Positions 20,729-33,053 of a stretch of 36,561 nt of DNA are shown piece after piece. Under the pieces are notes generated by a model. The model did no database searches and was not told the DNA's origin. It saw only the letters and a program-made list of their open reading frames with translations. Position numbers and translations under genes: made by a program. The stretch is taken from IMG/VR virus record IMGVR_UViG_3300010233_000104, positions 1-36,561 of that record. One strand, written 5' to 3'. Position 1 is the first letter of the stretch. Every line of letters starts with the position of its first letter. Source of the stretch: a virus.

Positions 20729-21364
20729 ATGATAGTACAAGCCCAAGCTGGTCCAGTTGCCACAACCTCTTCTTTACAACCAGGTGCCCAGGCTCCTGTA
20801 AGACTCGGTAATATGGGTGATGTTATAATTTCCGAATTACATGGTAGATATTATGAATCATCTTATCGTAGAGCCTTATTTTTCGGAGCAACACAGGCTG
20901 GCCAAACAACTACAATTGGTGCAGCCTTAACTTATGTTGGTATATGTTTATCTAATCCAGTTGGTTCTCCAGTAAATTTGTGTCTTCAGAAGGTTGGATT
21001 TGCATTCACTGTATTGGCACCTAACGTTGCTGGTATTGGATTGATGACTGGATATAACTCTGGTACTAACGTAACCCATACAGTTGCTTTGGTGCCTAAA
21101 TCTTCCTTTACCGGTATTGGTGCTCTTCCAACCGGTACTATCGATTCTTCTTCAACCTTGCCAACCGCTCCTACATTTACACATCTATTTGGTACATCAT
21201 ATACTGGTGCTCTTACAACAACTACCGTAGTTGGCCCAACAATAGTGGATCTTGAAGGTTCAGTAATTCTTCCTCCTGGCGCATATGCTGCTACCTTTAC
21301 CACTGCTGCATCTGGTGCTGCATCATTCTTCGGAAGTATGGCTTGGGAGGAAATTCCTACCTAA
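20729..21364 (+). CDS. Beta-rich tail protein, paralogue A1 of a tandem pair
   Basis: This 211-residue protein has the pattern GNMGDVIISELHGRYYESSY, then CLSNPVGSPVNLCLQKVGF, GLMTGYNSGTNVTHTV and the ending IVDLEGSVILPPGA ... WEEIPT. The same blocks occur in the gene at 21578, with about half the residues identical by eye. Related beta proteins (HGRYYE start, SNPxGSxxNxxL strand) are common in environmental T4-like and other phages near fibers; no function is established to my knowledge. A strong ribosome-binding site (TTAGGAG) precedes the ATG. The last codons contain GGGAGG, which would serve as ribosome-binding site for the endonuclease remnant that starts one base after its stop. Confidence 0.8.
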   Translation: MIVQAQAGPVATTSSLQPGAQAPVRLGNMGDVIISELHGRYYESSYRRALFFGATQAGQTTTIGAALTYVGICLSNPVGSPVNLCLQKVGFAFTVLAPNVAGIGLMTGYNSGTNVTHTVALVPKSSFTGIGALPTGTIDSSSTLPTAPTFTHLFGTSYTGALTTTTVVGPTIVDLEGSVILPPGAYAATFTTAASGAASFFGSMAWEEIPT

Positions 21365-21365
21365 A

Positions 21366-21584
21366 ATGGCAAAGAAAGGTGTAAAACAATCTCCAGAACA
21401 TATAGCCAAAAGAGTGGCGGCCAATAGAAAATCTGGAGCATATGATATAGCTTCAATTAATTGTAAAGAATTAAGAACAGATATTAATAACGGAAGAACC
21501 TTATGTGAAAATTGTCACAGATTAACTCCAACATGGGGTAATGGTTCTAGAGCCAAAAATTATGGAGAACAAGTAATATGCTAA
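21366..21584 (+). pseudogene. HNH homing endonuclease remnant with internal in-frame deletion
   Basis: I chose the ATG at 21366, giving 72 residues starting MAKKGVKQSPEHIAK. The frame also reads upstream to 21285, but that part is a shadow of the tail gene. Residues 7-35 match the N-terminal NUMOD3-like part of the full endonuclease at 22224 (QSPEHIAKRVAANRKSGAYD). Residues 36-58 match its last HNH segment (LRTDINNGRTLCENCHRLTP). The 114 codons between are missing, including the first Cys pair and the Asp-His that coordinate metal and cut DNA, so it cannot act as an HNH nuclease. The break falls at TAAAGAAT, an 8-base sequence present at both ends of the missing part in the intact copy (22337-22344 and 22679-22686; 342 bases apart). 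Its stop overlaps the next ATG (ATGCTAA). It may still be translated as a small basic protein. Confidence 0.85.
21464..21529 (+). repeat. 66-base identical direct repeat, HNH 3' segment, copy 1
   Basis: Identical to 22679-22744. It begins with the TAAAGAAT microhomology and codes for the final HNH segment with CxxCH. Confidence 0.9.
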
Positions 21585-22222
21585 TTCAAACACAAGTTGG
21601 ACCAATTGCAGTTCTAGCTTCTATTCCTGCAAATATTCAACCACCATTAAGAAGTGGTAATATGGGCGATCTTATAGTTTCCCAACTCCACGGTAGATAT
21701 TATGAAACCAACTACCGTAGAAACATGTTTGTTGCTACATCAAACAATTCTATAGGATCAAACACATCTGCTGGAACATTAACAACTTATTTTGGATTAT
21801 GTGTTTCTAATCCTGTAGGTTCTCCTGTAAATATTGTATTAAATAAAATTAATTTTACTGTTGCCAATGCATTCACAACTGTAACTCCAATTGGTTTAAT
21901 GACTGGTTATAATTCTAGTACAAGCGTAACCCATACTGCTAATGCTTTTGTTAAATCTGCCTTTACCGGTGTTGGAGCAGTAGGTCAAGGTTTAGCTGAT
22001 TGGTCAGCCACCTTATCAGCCACTCCTACTGTAACACATGTGTTTGCCACAGGTTATACGGGGGCCATATCAACAACTCCTCTACCTAGTTCTCCAACAA
22101 TTGTGGATCTTGAAGGTTCAGTAATTCTTCCTCCAGGAGCCTTTGCTGCTATATGGACTCCTACTGCCTTACCATCCTATGCATTATTTGCTGGAATGAG
22201 TTGGGAGGAAATACCTACCTAA
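21578..22222 (+). CDS. Beta-rich tail protein, paralogue A2 of a tandem pair
   Basis: This 214-residue paralogue of the protein at 20729 shares the blocks GNMGDLIVSQLHGRYYETNY, SNPVGSPVN, GLMTGYNS, the TxTH strand, IVDLEGSVILPPGA and the terminal WEEIPT. The middle loops (residues 50-70 and 130-160) differ most, as expected for surface loops under host-driven change. The DNA is nearly identical only near the 3' end (32 bases, GTGGATCTTGAAGG onward). The ATG overlaps the stop of the endonuclease remnant by 7 bases (ATGCTAA). Like A1, its final codons carry GGGAGG, which can serve the following HNH gene. The function is unknown; it is probably a receptor-contact or decoration protein. Confidence 0.8.
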   Translation: MLIQTQVGPIAVLASIPANIQPPLRSGNMGDLIVSQLHGRYYETNYRRNMFVATSNNSIGSNTSAGTLTTYFGLCVSNPVGSPVNIVLNKINFTVANAFTTVTPIGLMTGYNSSTSVTHTANAFVKSAFTGVGAVGQGLADWSATLSATPTVTHVFATGYTGAISTTPLPSSPTIVDLEGSVILPPGAFAAIWTPTALPSYALFAGMSWEEIPT

Positions 22223-22223
22223 A

Positions 22224-22799
22224 ATGGTAAACCTAAAACACTCTCTAAAAGGAAAAAAACAATCTCCAGAACACATAGCCAAAAGAGTGGCAGCCAATAG
22301 AAAATCTGGAGCATATGATAAAGCTTCTATTAGGTGTAAAGAATGGAATAAAAGTTTAATAGGTTCTAAGATATCTGAGGAAACAAAATTTAAAATTTCC
22401 AAATCTATGAAAGGAAAACAAAATTCTTTAGGAGTTAAACGTTCTGTAGAATTTAGACAAAAGCTTTCTCATTATTATAAAACTAATCCTGAAAAACATA
22501 ATCATTATATAGATGGTAAAGGACATGAAAGAGTAACAGCTAGATTAACTCACATGGGAACTTTAGAATATAGATTATGGAGAGAGCAAGTTTTTGAAAG
22601 AGATAATTATACTTGCCAAATGTGTGGTGAACGTGGTGGCAAATTAAATGCGGATCACATTAAACCATACAATTTATTTAAAGAATTAAGAACAGATATT
22701 AATAACGGAAGAACCTTATGTGAAAATTGTCACAGATTAACTCCCACATGGGGTGGTCGAGTAAATAAAATATCCCCACCAACCCTTATTAATATATAA
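22224..22799 (+). CDS. HNH homing endonuclease with NUMOD3 repeats, intact copy
   Basis: This 191-residue protein has three parts. NUMOD3-type DNA-binding repeats lie at residues 9-38 (KGKKQSPEHIAKRVAANRKS) and 42-82 (GSKISEETKFKISKSMKGKQ). A linker follows. The HNH domain spans about residues 114-177: YRLWREQVFERDNYTCQMCG, C131/C134, the D144-H145 pair in NADHIKPY, and C166/C169-H170 in LCENCHRL. These are the two zinc knuckles and the catalytic His expected of the ββα-metal fold. Such enzymes in T4-like phages cut unoccupied alleles and spread their own gene. It starts one base after the A2 tail gene stop, with a ribosome-binding site inside that gene. It is a free-standing gene; no intron or intein is visible. 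Confidence 0.9.
   Translation: MVNLKHSLKGKKQSPEHIAKRVAANRKSGAYDKASIRCKEWNKSLIGSKISEETKFKISKSMKGKQNSLGVKRSVEFRQKLSHYYKTNPEKHNHYIDGKGHERVTARLTHMGTLEYRLWREQVFERDNYTCQMCGERGGKLNADHIKPYNLFKELRTDINNGRTLCENCHRLTPTWGGRVNKISPPTLINI
22679..22744 (+). repeat. 66-base identical direct repeat, HNH 3' segment, copy 2
   Basis: Identical to 21464-21529. The first 8 bases, TAAAGAAT, also occur at 22337-22344 in the same gene and mark the deletion endpoints of the remnant copy. Confidence 0.9.
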
Positions 22800-24240: not shown

Positions 24241-25176
24241 ATGGGATCTATTCATTTTCCTTCAAATCCTAGAGCAAATAATGTTTATACCTTGAATGGT
24301 CAAGTTTGGTGGTACGATGGCATGTCCTGGAATGCTATAGATAGAGGTTTAGCTAATCCATGTCCTCTTGATAGTCTAACTGCTAAAGCAAATGTTGCTT
24401 ATGGATGTAGACAATTATATAAATCCTATACCGGACCTATAGTTCAATTACGTAGAGCATCTGATGGTGTAACTACAATATTTAATGTTCAAAATAACCT
24501 ACATGCAAATATAGCTTCCTTCCTTACTGGAACCACAGGTTGGGTTGTTGTTTGGTATGATCAGTCAGGAGCAGGATTAAATGCTATCCAATCTGTCCCG
24601 GGACAACAACCTGGATGGAATATATCCTGTCAAAATGGACAATCAGCATTAGATTTTCCTTATGCTAATTCACCCGGTTTAATAGCTAACACATCTTCCT
24701 CCTTATATTCAGCAAATAGTAATTTTACAATGTATGTATCTACCTCTTCTTGGGCTAATCAAGCATCATATCCCACTTTATTAGGTATGGGAGGTTCAAG
24801 TCAAGGATGGGTTTTGCAAGATACTACATCCGGTTCAAATACATTTACTTTTTATTCATCAACATATGGTGGAACATTATCAGGTGTCACCACATTAAAT
24901 GATAATAAATGGCGCACTTTCTTAGTTACCTCAAATGTAATAACCGCCGCCGTTAATATATATGCGGAAAATGCATTATCTGGATCATCATTTAATGGAG
25001 GAGGATTAGTAATACCTAATACTGGATTATATATAGGACCTTATAATTATGGAGATCCTTGGGGTGGATCTATAGGAGAATTTGCCTATTTCATAGGTAA
25101 TACAGCCAATCCATTATCATCAACTGATCTAAGTACCATTTATAGTTCATCATTATTTTATTGGGGAGCCAATTAA
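24241..25176 (+). CDS. Fiber-tip protein with arabinofuranosidase-B-like jelly roll
   Basis: This 311-residue protein has an N-terminal about 35-residue attachment domain (IHFPSNPRANNVYTLNGQVW, then WYDGMSWNA) like that of the preceding fiber. Residues about 45-311 show the pattern of the arabinofuranosidase-B catalytic-type fold (GH54, concanavalin-like): AYGCRQLYKSYTGPIVQLRR, ASDGVTT, a WVVVWYDQSGAGLNAIQ strand, QPGWN, ALDFPYANSPGL, and a final GSIGEFAYFIG strand. In known enzymes this fold cuts arabinan side chains; in phages it is common as a virion domain, and whether it cuts or only binds cannot be judged here because I cannot place the catalytic acids. It is probably a glycan-contact tip protein. 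Its stop overlaps the gp13 start by one base (TAATG). Confidence 0.78.
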   Translation: MGSIHFPSNPRANNVYTLNGQVWWYDGMSWNAIDRGLANPCPLDSLTAKANVAYGCRQLYKSYTGPIVQLRRASDGVTTIFNVQNNLHANIASFLTGTTGWVVVWYDQSGAGLNAIQSVPGQQPGWNISCQNGQSALDFPYANSPGLIANTSSSLYSANSNFTMYVSTSSWANQASYPTLLGMGGSSQGWVLQDTTSGSNTFTFYSSTYGGTLSGVTTLNDNKWRTFLVTSNVITAAVNIYAENALSGSSFNGGGLVIPNTGLYIGPYNYGDPWGGSIGEFAYFIGNTANPLSSTDLSTIYSSSLFYWGAN

Positions 25177-26138: not shown

Positions 26139-26167
26139 ATCTTGCATTGAAAGAAAGATTTACAATT

Positions 26168-26740
26168 ATGACGATATATCATAATCACCATATTATACCC
26201 AAACATATTGGAGGCTCAAATGATTCTTCCAACATTAAGAAATTGACTATTAGACAACATGCCTTGGCTCATAAAAAATTGTTTGAAGAACATGGTAGAT
26301 GGCAAGATAAAGAAGCTTGGTTATCTTTGTCCGGACAAATAACATGTGCTGAAGCTATTAAAAGAGCACAAATATTATCCAATAAAACTAGAATCATATC
26401 TGATGAAACTAAAATAAAAATGTCATTGAGTCATAAAGGTAAACCTTCTGCTATGAAAGGAAAACACCACACTCAAAAATCTAAAGAAATGATATCATTA
26501 GCAAAAAAAGGTAAACAACAAAAAGAATCTACGAAAAAATTATGGAGTATTAACAGAACAAAAAAATTTAAAGAAGGTATAATGTTTGTTCCTACATTTA
26601 CTGGTAGGAAACATAGTGAAAATCATAAACATAAAATGAGTTTACTTATGTCTGGTAGAAAATTATCAGAAGAAACAAAATTAAAGATTAGTTTGGCAAA
26701 AAGAAAGAAAGCACAACATGTCAACCAATCCATTCTTTAA
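26168..26740 (+). CDS. HNH homing endonuclease with NUMOD3 repeats, inserted between gp13 and gp14
   Basis: I chose the ATG at 26168 (190 residues, MTIYHNHHIIPKHIGGSNDS). A TTG at 26147 would add seven residues. The N-terminus is a compact HNH core: HNHHIIPKHIGG, SNIKKLTIRQHALAHKKLFE, then EEHGRWQDKEAW. The rest holds three or four NUMOD3 repeats (ISDETKIKMSLSHKGKPSAM, HTQKSKEMISLAKKG, FTGRKHSENHKHKMS, LSEETKLKISLAKRKK), which bind DNA. It is strongly Lys-rich and more AT-rich than its neighbours. It is unrelated in architecture to the HNH at 22224, where the HNH is C-terminal. A GAAAGAAAGA sequence precedes the ATG. Its last 23 bases overlap the start of gp14, so it also carries gp14's ribosome-binding region. 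Confidence 0.9.
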   Translation: MTIYHNHHIIPKHIGGSNDSSNIKKLTIRQHALAHKKLFEEHGRWQDKEAWLSLSGQITCAEAIKRAQILSNKTRIISDETKIKMSLSHKGKPSAMKGKHHTQKSKEMISLAKKGKQQKESTKKLWSINRTKKFKEGIMFVPTFTGRKHSENHKHKMSLLMSGRKLSEETKLKISLAKRKKAQHVNQSIL

Positions 26741-29309: not shown

Positions 29310-31047
29310 TTCTGGTCAAATAGGATATAATGGAAACTATTCGTTGGTTAAAGGAAACCAACCCATAAGTTTTACTAAAAAACAGGTTCAAGAAATACGT
29401 AAATGTATGGAAGATCCTGTTTATTTTGCCTTGACCTATGTTAAAATTATTAGCGTAGATAAAGGTTTAATACCTTTTAATCCTTGGGATTTTCAAAGAG
29501 ACATGATAAATGTCTTCAATTCCAATCGATTTGTTATAACAAAATGTCCTAGACAAAGTGGTAAAACGACAACCATCATTGCTTATCTTTTACATCAAAT
29601 TTTATTCAGACCTAATACCACAGTTGGTATTCTTGCAAATAAAGGTGCAACTGCTAGAGATATTTTGGGTAGATTGAAATTGGCTTATACTTATTTGCCT
29701 AAATGGATGCAACAAGGTATTGAAGTTTGGAATCTTGGTGATATCAAATTAACAAATGGATCAAGAGTTATTGCTGCCGCAACTGCATCTGACGCGGTTC
29801 GTGGTTATACCTTTAACATAATATTCCTTGATGAATTTGCTTTCGTACCTAATAATGATGCAGTGAAGTTTTTCAGTTCAACCTTCCCAACTATTTCTTC
29901 TGGACAAACAACACAGGTCCTAATTGTATCCACACCGAATGGTTTGAATCTTTATCATAAAATGTGGAAGGATGCAATTGAGAAAAAAAGTCGATTTATT
30001 CCTATTGAAGTGGCTTGGGACATGGTTCCGGGTCGTAATCAAAAATGGAAAGCTGACACTATTGCTAATATGGGTGAGGAACAATTCCGCCAAGAATTCG
30101 AAACTGAATTTATCGGTTCTTCTCACACATTAATTTCACCAAACAAACTTAGATTAATGTCCTGGATGGCTCCTGTTGAGGATGACAAACAAGGATTACA
30201 TATATTTTATCCACCTGAAGAAGGTCATACCTATGCTATTATGGCAGATGTTTCTGAAGGTCAACAAAAAGATGCCTCGGCATTTTCTGTTATTGATGTA
30301 ACCAATATTCCTTATCAACAAGTTGCCAGATATAAAAATGATTCTATATCAACCTTATTATATCCAACGGTTATATTTGGGGCAGGTAAAAAATACAACA
30401 ATGCTTATATCCTTGTAGAAATTTCAAGTATTGGAATGGAAGTTGCCAATATACTTCATCATGAATTAGAATATGAAAATCTTGTTAAAATTCAAATGAA
30501 AGGAAGACAAGGTCAACAAATTTCCCAAGGATATCTTAAGAGAATTGCTTTTGGTTTAAAACAATCTACAGCTACCAAAAGAATAGGATGTTCCAATTTA
30601 AAGGCTTTAGTAGAAAGTGATAAATTGATAGTCAATGATGCTGACACAATTTTGGAATTAACCGCTTTCACTGCCCAAAAAGAATCATATAAGGCAGAAC
30701 AAGGCAATCATGATGATTTGTGTATGACATTGGTGTTATTTGGATGGTTTATTGCTCAAAGACAGTTTAGGGATTCTTTAAAGAATGATATTCGCCAAGT
30801 GATGCAAAAAGAAGCATTGAATATTGATCAAGAAGATATGGTTCCTTTTGGTATAGTTGTTGATGGTACAGAAGATGATGCCGAATTGTTATTGGAAAAA
30901 GAAGAAAGGGCTGCCGGCTGGGAACTTGCCCGTAAACAGAATTATCCGTTCGATAGTTTCTATAATTGGGATTATCTTGGTAATGATATGGCTTTGAATC
31001 AACCACGACCAGGAATGCCAGTAGATTCAAATATATTAGAAAGGTAA
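29290..31047 (+). CDS. 17: Large terminase subunit gp17 (packaging ATPase-nuclease)
   Basis: This 585-residue protein (T4 gp17 is 610) has an N-terminal ATPase domain. The Walker A motif is CPRQSGKT at residues 86-93, Walker B IIFLDE at 177-182 with catalytic Glu182, and the coupling motif STPNG at 214-218. The adenine-binding region PFNPWDFQRDM is at 62-72. The C-terminal RNase H-like nuclease domain shows candidate metal-binding acids at D320 (YAIMADVSEG), E378 (ILVEISS) and D475/D476 (GNHDDLCMTLVLFGW). It packages DNA into the prohead through gp20 and makes headful cuts. All expected residues are present, so it should be active. The start overlaps gp16 by 20 bases. Confidence 0.97.
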   Translation: MPTPQTNSGQIGYNGNYSLVKGNQPISFTKKQVQEIRKCMEDPVYFALTYVKIISVDKGLIPFNPWDFQRDMINVFNSNRFVITKCPRQSGKTTTIIAYLLHQILFRPNTTVGILANKGATARDILGRLKLAYTYLPKWMQQGIEVWNLGDIKLTNGSRVIAAATASDAVRGYTFNIIFLDEFAFVPNNDAVKFFSSTFPTISSGQTTQVLIVSTPNGLNLYHKMWKDAIEKKSRFIPIEVAWDMVPGRNQKWKADTIANMGEEQFRQEFETEFIGSSHTLISPNKLRLMSWMAPVEDDKQGLHIFYPPEEGHTYAIMADVSEGQQKDASAFSVIDVTNIPYQQVARYKNDSISTLLYPTVIFGAGKKYNNAYILVEISSIGMEVANILHHELEYENLVKIQMKGRQGQQISQGYLKRIAFGLKQSTATKRIGCSNLKALVESDKLIVNDADTILELTAFTAQKESYKAEQGNHDDLCMTLVLFGWFIAQRQFRDSLKNDIRQVMQKEALNIDQEDMVPFGIVVDGTEDDAELLLEKEERAAGWELARKQNYPFDSFYNWDYLGNDMALNQPRPGMPVDSNILER

Positions 31048-31059
31048 CTACCCTATTTT

Positions 31060-31067
31060 TATAAATA
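31060..31067 (+). promoter_or_regulatory. T4-type late promoter TATAAATA upstream of tail sheath gene
   Basis: This is an exact match to the T4 late promoter octamer recognised by the gp55 sigma-like factor. It sits in the 65-base gap between gp17 and gp18, 45 bases before the gp18 ATG. The ribosome-binding sequence GGAG (31101-31104) lies between. A late promoter before the highly expressed sheath gene is expected from T4 biology. Confidence 0.75.
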
Positions 31068-31112: not shown

Positions 31113-33053
31113 ATGCCAGCATTACAACAGCTTTCACCAGGTGTGGTTTTTCAGGAAGTTGATCTAACAACAACAGTTCCTAATATTTCTACCACCACCG
31201 GTGCTTTCGTTGGTCAATTTCAATGGGGTCCAGCTAGATGGAAGACATTAATAACGTCTGAACCACAATTAGTTAGAACATTTTTAAAGCCTGACTCTAA
31301 TACTTATCTTTCTTTCTTTTCCGTTGCCAATTTCTTAGCATATGGTGGTCCATGTCAAGTTGTTAGAGCCGTAGCCAATGTTGCCAATAATTCAACTGCT
31401 AGCGGTAGTGGTTTATTAATTCCTAATGAAAACATTTATCAAAATACCTATTTCGGTGGTGGTGGTTTTTCTGCTGCTGGTCAATGGGCTGGTAGATATC
31501 CCGGTTCTATTAGCAATGGATTAATAATTTCTTTATGTCCATCCGCTAATGCCTTTTCTTCAAATTTGACCACAAGATATGTTGCTAATGCCAATACCAC
31601 TATAAATTCTAACGTTATTACTTTTTCTGCAAACGTTTATGGTCAATTACAAATTAATGATTTGTTGACTGTTGGTAATCAAGCAACTGTATTGGTAACA
31701 AATGTTGCAACAAATGGTGTTTTGGCTCTTATTAATAATGCCAGCTTAATCACCTCTACCCTTGCTTTTGCTGCTGCATCAAGACAATGGCAATATGCAA
31801 GATTTTTCTCTGGTCCACCAACAACCTCTGGATATGCATCTAAAGTAGGTGGTGCAAATGATCAATGTCACGTTATCATTGTGGACACCCAAGGATCCTT
31901 TACTACAACCACCGTATCTCCAATTAATATTGGTGGTGCTAATACCATTCTAGAACAATATTCATTCCTATCTTTGGCATCTGATGCTGTTAATAATGAT
32001 GGTTCGCAAGCTTATATTCCATCTGTTATTTTCTCTAAATCTAATTATGCATATTGGATGGGATGGCCTACTGCTGGTACCAATTGGGGTAACACCGCTG
32101 CGGCTACCACATTCACCAATGTGGAATATCCAACATATTCTTACATGTCTGGTGGTCAAACTGGCTCTCCTCTAGATGGTGATCTAGAATCCGGTTGGGA
32201 TTTATTCAACAATCCGGATGAAGTAAAAGTGTCATTGTTGATTACTGGAGCGTCCGATACCACTGTATGTAACTATGTTCTAACCAGCACAGTTCCAAAC
32301 AGACAAGATTGTGTGGCCTTTATTTCACCTCAACAAAATGACGTTGTAAATCAACCAGGAAGTGAATCAACTAACGTATTGGCTACTAGAAATACCTATC
32401 CATCAACCACCTATGGTTTCATGGATTCTAACTGGAAGTACATGTATGACAAATACAATAACGTATATCGTTGGGTTCCATTAAATCCAGATATCGCTGG
32501 TTTGTGTGCTCAAACAGATATGAAGAAAGGTGCTTCTTGGTGGTCTCCTGCTGGTTATAACAGAGGTTTGATCAAAAATGTTACACGTCTTGCTTGGCAT
32601 CCAAACAAGGCTTATAGAGACATTTTATATTCTGCTGGTGTAAATCCTGCATTAAACTTTGCTGGTCAAGGTCCATTGCTATTTGGTGATGTTACTATGA
32701 CCACTCAACCTTCTGCATTTAGCAGAATCAACGTAAGAAGATTGTTCATATATTTGGAACAAACCATCTCTCTTGCAGCAAAATATTCCTTGTTCGAATT
32801 CAATGATGAATTTACCAGATCCGCTTTCTTAAATTTGGTAACTCCAACTTTGAGACAAGTACAAGGTGGTAGAGGTATTACAAACTTCCAAGTTGTGTGT
32901 GATACAACTAATAACACACCGGTTGTAATACAAGCTAACCAATTTATTGGAGACATTTACATTGTTCCAAACTACAGCATTAACTTCATTAACTTGAATT
33001 TCGTGGCTGTTGGTCCATCCGTAACCTTCAATACTGTTATTGGTCAATTCTAA
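31113..33053 (+). CDS. 18: Tail sheath protein gp18
   Basis: This 646-residue protein (T4 gp18 is 659) starts with the conserved LSPGVVFQEVDLTTTVPNIS and TTTGAFVGQFQWGPARWKTL, ending in the C-terminal sheath core (RINVRRLFIYLEQTISLAAK, FEFNDEFTRSAFLNLVTPTL, then RQVQGGRGI and VVCDTTNNTP). The middle (about residues 95-300) is the variable protease-resistant outer domain. gp18 forms the contractile sheath around gp19. The preceding gap has a perfect late promoter and a good ribosome-binding site, fitting high expression. Confidence 0.97.
   Translation: MPALQQLSPGVVFQEVDLTTTVPNISTTTGAFVGQFQWGPARWKTLITSEPQLVRTFLKPDSNTYLSFFSVANFLAYGGPCQVVRAVANVANNSTASGSGLLIPNENIYQNTYFGGGGFSAAGQWAGRYPGSISNGLIISLCPSANAFSSNLTTRYVANANTTINSNVITFSANVYGQLQINDLLTVGNQATVLVTNVATNGVLALINNASLITSTLAFAAASRQWQYARFFSGPPTTSGYASKVGGANDQCHVIIVDTQGSFTTTTVSPINIGGANTILEQYSFLSLASDAVNNDGSQAYIPSVIFSKSNYAYWMGWPTAGTNWGNTAAATTFTNVEYPTYSYMSGGQTGSPLDGDLESGWDLFNNPDEVKVSLLITGASDTTVCNYVLTSTVPNRQDCVAFISPQQNDVVNQPGSESTNVLATRNTYPSTTYGFMDSNWKYMYDKYNNVYRWVPLNPDIAGLCAQTDMKKGASWWSPAGYNRGLIKNVTRLAWHPNKAYRDILYSAGVNPALNFAGQGPLLFGDVTMTTQPSAFSRINVRRLFIYLEQTISLAAKYSLFEFNDEFTRSAFLNLVTPTLRQVQGGRGITNFQVVCDTTNNTPVVIQANQFIGDIYIVPNYSINFINLNFVAVGPSVTFNTVIGQF

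Follow-up and report, generated by a model that had tools for sequence, protein, structure and literature searches.

A probable remnant of a free-standing HNH homing endonuclease gene, shortened by an in-frame deletion at an 8-base repeat, in a viral record that also holds the full gene

Background

Homing endonucleases that have decayed through deletion are a kind already known in phages, and the mechanism of their decay is known as well. In the sections of the cited papers available to us, T4 I-TevIII, the open-reading frame of the nrdB intron, is described as a deleted version of the HNH homing endonuclease found in phage RB3 (PMC2988022), and the T5orf172 homing endonuclease gp174* of ICP1 is described as carrying a 228-bp in-frame deletion produced by recombination between internal repeats (PMC10448857). 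Among Skunavirus phages, 56 of 268 HNH genes were read by the authors as partially deleted remnants, in the part of that paper available (PMC12724721). The same sections report that I-TevI represses its own gene (PMC2988022) and that the satellite protein CapR has sequence in common with the DNA-binding domains of ICP1 homing endonucleases (PMC10448857).

Here, we describe a locus in the virus record IMGVR_UViG_3300010233_000104, in which a short frame and a full HNH gene stand behind two sister genes, S1 and S2. As with I-TevIII, a large internal deletion appears to have inactivated an HNH homing endonuclease of which an intact version is present elsewhere; unlike the present case, I-TevIII is, in the available text, intron-encoded and has its intact version in another phage (PMC2988022), whereas here a single record contains both forms behind sister genes and the window gave no sign of an intron. 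The in-frame deletion between internal repeats is shared with gp174*, which differs, as far as the available sections describe it, in belonging to another nuclease family and in having its deletion in the DNA-binding repeats and not in the catalytic core (PMC10448857). The available part of the Skunavirus paper on truncated HNH genes does not report tandem paralogs followed by an intact and a deleted copy (PMC12724721), and a literature search returned no account of such an arrangement behind tandem sister genes, an absence that is no proof. We consider it likely that a free-standing HNH homing endonuclease gene spread between paralogous S sites and that the short frame is one of its copies, decayed through a microhomology deletion that removed the core.

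Results and discussion

Gene order at the S1/S2 locus

The window, by which we mean the whole stretch of DNA analysed, covers the 36,561 bases of the record and includes T4-type portal, terminase and sheath genes. Within its tail-gene region, four frames are closely packed on the plus strand: S1 (20729-21364; 211 aa), the short frame (21366-21584), S2 (21578-22222; 214 aa), and the full HNH gene (22224-22799; 191 aa). The short frame starts 1 nt past the S1 stop codon, and its end overlaps the start of S2 by 7 nt (ATGCTAA). S1 and S2 are 54% identical and form sister rows in a 62-row tree (support 98/84); a six-sequence tree left S1/S2 unresolved, and no Pfam or PHROG family match was obtained for either protein. 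Both HNH copies begin one base past an S stop codon, at the identical junction TGGGAGGAAATNCCTACCTAAAATGG, which joins the S1 end and its stop codon to the start of the short frame at 21344-21369 and the S2 end to the start of the full HNH gene at 22202-22227, both on the plus strand. The window has two exact matches to this junction, whereas 100 shuffles gave none even when up to 3 mismatches were allowed.

Several other features of the window were recorded. A second likely homing endonuclease lies at 26147-26740, with two NUMOD3 motifs (7.3e-12), a weak HNH start, and a PHROG match to 'homing endonuclease' (2.6e-15). A tail-region protein at 24241-25176 has a Pfam match to the alpha-L-arabinofuranosidase B catalytic domain (4e-8). 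The word TATAAATA, which we take to be a T4-late-promoter-like word, has a single copy in the window (31060-31067) against 6.0 expected from shuffles, and this copy precedes the sheath gene at 31113 by about 45 bases.

The short frame consists of the two ends of the full HNH gene

The 72-codon frame reported at 21366-21584 in a preliminary description of this DNA is indeed present, and corresponds to the two ends of the HNH gene at 22224-22799 minus 342 bases (114 codons), in frame. That description mentioned neither the S1/S2 tandem pair nor the insertion point common to both HNH copies. It had been described as equal to the full gene minus 342 bases, which holds for the in-frame loss and not for exact identity, given a 15-nt difference at the start, a foreign tail, and 10 substitutions in total. 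These fall as 9 differences in the left matched segment of 97 nt and 1 in the right segment of 76 nt, so that, within the remnant's matched region (21375-21539), divergence from the full copy is greater in the left part than in the right (p = 0.02, or p = 0.12 with the first 12 columns omitted); a single clean copy event does not account for this unequal divergence. The lengths of the full and short frames, 576 and 219 nt, differ by 357 and not by 342, because the start regions differ by 5 further codons (15 nt, in frame). Homology to the full gene ends after 21539, and the short frame then runs 14 codons into the leader of S2. Similarity between this non-HNH tail and the tail of the full gene was not found (1642 of 2000 shuffles scored as high), indicating that the stop codon of the short frame is not that of the full gene. 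The frame has thus been kept, as had been proposed, while the stop has not, and the start regions differ by the 5 codons noted above.

The 8-base word TAAAGAAT marks the deletion junction. It occurs at 21464-21471 in the remnant, at 22337-22344 and 22679-22686 in the full gene, where it had been placed before, and as one distant copy at 30779; the three former copies are on the plus strand. In the short copy, TAAAGAAT is the overlap of the two matched segments; in the full gene, its copies are separated by 342 bases, left end to left end, which is the length absent from the remnant. The two direct-repeat families have spacings of 873 and 1215, again a difference of 342. When all possible deletions of at least 30 nt in the full HNH gene were enumerated, only 85 of 148,240 (0.06%) had junction homology of at least 8 nt, which argues that the fit at the remnant junction is not due to chance. 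These results lend good support to the proposal of a remnant made by in-frame deletion between 8-base repeats. Repeats of such size are themselves ordinary in this gene, with 9 of at least 8 nt observed and 6.1 expected from shuffles, and an in-frame deletion would result from 5 of those 9. An open frame is expected in 59.6% of cases with 8 random substitutions and, after so few changes, its openness is no evidence for use. Neither the open frame of the remnant nor the way it fits between S1 and S2 goes beyond what chance would permit.

The close packing would also suit a remnant kept in frame for translational coupling from S1 to S2 and not for its protein, since the S1 stop lies next to the remnant start and the remnant stop overlaps the S2 start. 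We judge this to be quite improbable: an in-frame outcome has a one-in-three chance, and S2 has its own Shine-Dalgarno-like leader, GGAGAA, so that coupling is not needed for S2. S1 and four compared relatives have leaders of the GGAG or AGGA type.

An assembly artefact, with both copies at full length in the real genome or with a chimeric short form, has in its favor that the record is metagenome-derived and that 66 nt are exactly common to both units. We consider such an error very improbable, because the 8-nt junction would be shorter than any usual assembly word and because the 9 differences in the left part are private to the short copy, which was therefore not built from full-copy reads.

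The deletion removes much of the HNH core

The full copy carries an NUMOD3-like repeat, NUMOD3 (residues 47-82; Pfam 4.1e-8), and an HNH core (residues 131-171; Pfam 4.6e-10), and matches the PHROG HNH endonuclease family at 3.7e-15, thereby combining the NUMOD-type DNA-binding arm and nuclease domain of a free-standing homing endonuclease. Against HNH PF01844, it scores 39.9 bits (cut-off 21.4) and has 14 of 14 invariant columns, including both Cys pairs and the catalytic His, as defined in an alignment of 11 HNH proteins comprising the full copy and 10 relatives. The short frame scores 18.3 bits, below the same cut-off, and covers profile positions 24-42 of 47 only. It is collinear with the intact gene with the core missing, as a deletion-form remnant is, and has the altered start and foreign tail in addition.

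The closest solved structure to the full-copy core is the HNH endonuclease of phage GVE2 (PDB 5h0m; sequence E 0.00047), which is also its best fold match in Foldseek (E 2.7e-3), a weak match because the model of the full copy is only partly confident (mean pLDDT 69.1). The GVE2 enzyme thus resembles the core in sequence and fold, and is without the NUMOD3 arm. An intron-encoded endonuclease was considered and rejected, as no Rfam match was obtained at the gathering threshold across the whole window and the full HNH frame comes after a complete S2 gene.

Residues deleted from the full-length protein are about 39-152, and these include 8 of the 14 invariant residues (R120, D127, N128, Y129, T130, C131, C134, and H145), with 6 kept. 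As had been claimed, the first Cys pair (C131/C134) and the Asp-His (D144-H145) lie within the loss. Judged from these missing core residues, the short protein should not cut DNA and, with the first Cys pair gone, a four-Cys zinc site would not be able to form within one remnant chain. The NUMOD3-like segment and CxxCH were also said to be retained; the NUMOD3-like repeat (KQSPEHIAKR...) and CxxCH are retained, and the NUMOD3 match defined by Pfam is deleted.

Relatives carry the full form

The core is complete in 10 of 10 relatives in the HNH alignment, indicating that the full form is older than the short form; on sequence comparison, the polarity, full form first, is clear. This bears on the opposite reading, an ancestral short form into which the 342 bases were inserted with duplication of an 8-base target, as the TAAAGAAT copies flanking those bases would allow. 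Since every aligned relative has the core that these bases encode, this order of events was rejected and is exceedingly improbable.

The same deletion was looked for in relatives, as had been suggested, and none with the short form was found among HNH relatives at 48 viral-contig loci (best-segment identity 22-68%, with high values only across short stretches) or at 11 genome-contig loci. A degenerate pattern for the junction peptide, CKELRTDINNG, matched 0 stretches in viral contigs. Among annotated phages, the short form was absent from the 49 records with HNH matches, all of which were below 60% identity and none of which covered 80%. Two candidates whose matches to the short protein span both halves were rejected as short-form relatives: L005, which has the full HNH core in one 435-aa frame, and L026, a GIY-YIG-like protein, so named from its motif, with NUMOD3-type repeats. 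In L005 (1058-2362), the HNH core is in frame inside the 435-aa frame, and the N-terminal part resembles another gene product, as if inserted seamlessly.

The S family has 128 relatives, of which 80 loci were analysed; these contain 81 S copies, for 78 of which 600 nt or more of downstream sequence was available. At none of the 81 copies did the 1.5 kb after S include an HNH-profile frame. The same profile detects the full copy in the window at 1.5e-37 and the remnant at 4.7e-11, so a comparable remnant near other S copies would probably have shown. The full HNH protein had matches in none of the 6 relative records searched. The full copy is thus sporadic, lying beside a conserved S gene whose sites in these 80 loci are empty. 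HNH-profile frames occur about 2.3 kb downstream of S at L120 and L121, and a NUMOD3-motif frame about 1 kb downstream at L165.

The remnant is best read as a simple fossil

Two functions had been offered for the remnant, a working repressor or immunity factor and a simple fossil, and the latter fits best. A repressor would use the NUMOD3-like repeat and the CxxCH segment to bind the target or promoter and block the full enzyme. Its frame, start, and 5' half are intact, and its placement between S1 and S2 is translation-ready; I-TevI as an autorepressor (PMC2988022) and the likeness of CapR to the DNA-binding domains of ICP1 homing endonucleases (PMC10448857) are precedents in the available text of those papers. 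The suggested comparison of synonymous and non-synonymous changes also points this way, as 3 of 8 changed shared codons are non-synonymous, fewer than the neutral expectation (p = 0.03). This deficit indicates that some of the divergence accumulated under constraint, either in the full copy or at a time before the deletion; with only 8 changed codons of 55, the comparison is limited in what it can say of the age of the deletion. Against a repressor stand the loss of the Pfam-defined NUMOD3 and the first Cys pair, the lack of conserved short forms among the viral and genome loci searched and in the junction-pattern search, the open frame that is expected by chance, and the in-frame deletions that five of the nine repeats would give. 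A single-sequence model of the short protein also gave no confident fold (pLDDT 47.8), which is weak evidence. Overall, a working repressor is quite improbable.

The HNH copies are younger than the split between S1 and S2, or were made alike since

Of the codons whose amino acid is unchanged, differences occur in 5 of 52 for the pair of HNH copies and in 40 of 114 for the S1/S2 pair (Fisher p = 0.0006). This lower silent divergence indicates that the HNH copies split after S1/S2 or were made alike since. It counts against a tandem duplication of the whole S and HNH unit, which is otherwise favored by the sister relationship of S1 and S2, by the presence of an HNH copy at the same point behind each, and by the existence of independent tandem S pairs. 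Without conversion, the silent divergence of the dead copy should be at least that of S1/S2, and it is far less. This duplication would thus have to be followed by gene conversion of the HNH copies or by the swapping of one S by recombination, which we regard as a possible but rather unlikely course.

Such an independent tandem S pair occurs at L144 (831-2208), 1 of the 80 loci, in which the two copies are 66% identical, 73 nt apart, without HNH, and sisters in the 62-row tree. Two S-family genes also lie far apart on one contig in L131 with L135 (3300009151_000053) and in L125 with L172 (3300032242_000723), indicating that S paralogs recur in large phages.

In the reading that we prefer, a decayed homing endonuclease copied between S sites, S would have duplicated to give S1 and S2, which diverged, and the HNH gene would have arrived at one S end after that divergence. 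It would then most probably have reached the other paralog through cleavage, or priming of recombination, by the enzyme at the conserved 3' end of S. The copy behind S1 would later have lost its 342 bases at the observed TAAAGAAT junction, presumably by slipped pairing or microhomology recombination, and with them the first Cys pair and the active-site Asp-His, leaving a protein that should not cut DNA. Homing as the copying route has points against it, as the co-conversion signal at the S end is weak and homology between the right flanks of the two units was not found. The S 3' end and the rest of the gene do not differ significantly in codons that are the same between S1 and S2 (20/28 vs 54/86, p = 0.50), and a co-conversion tract at the S end was rejected on this basis; S1 and S2 have a single stretch in which 10 successive codons are identical (shuffle p = 0.03).

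Conclusions

This record would show a homing endonuclease at two stages of its life cycle, with one copy apparently intact and one lacking its core, at the same point behind sister genes, and the paired copies allow the HNH copies to be dated against their host paralogs, S1 and S2. The likeliest effect of the remnant, if it has any, would be in cis, where the occupied S1 end may be altered as a target for the intact enzyme, and such an interruption of the target is the simplest benefit that the remnant could give. That the dead copy has been kept as a shield, occupying the S1 end in cis and perhaps acting in trans as a nuclease-dead binder that protects the paralogous site from the intact enzyme, is a long shot. 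If true, one homing endonuclease would carry its own antidote, made from its own gene, and the record offers a tidy system for asking whether a dead copy protects its site.
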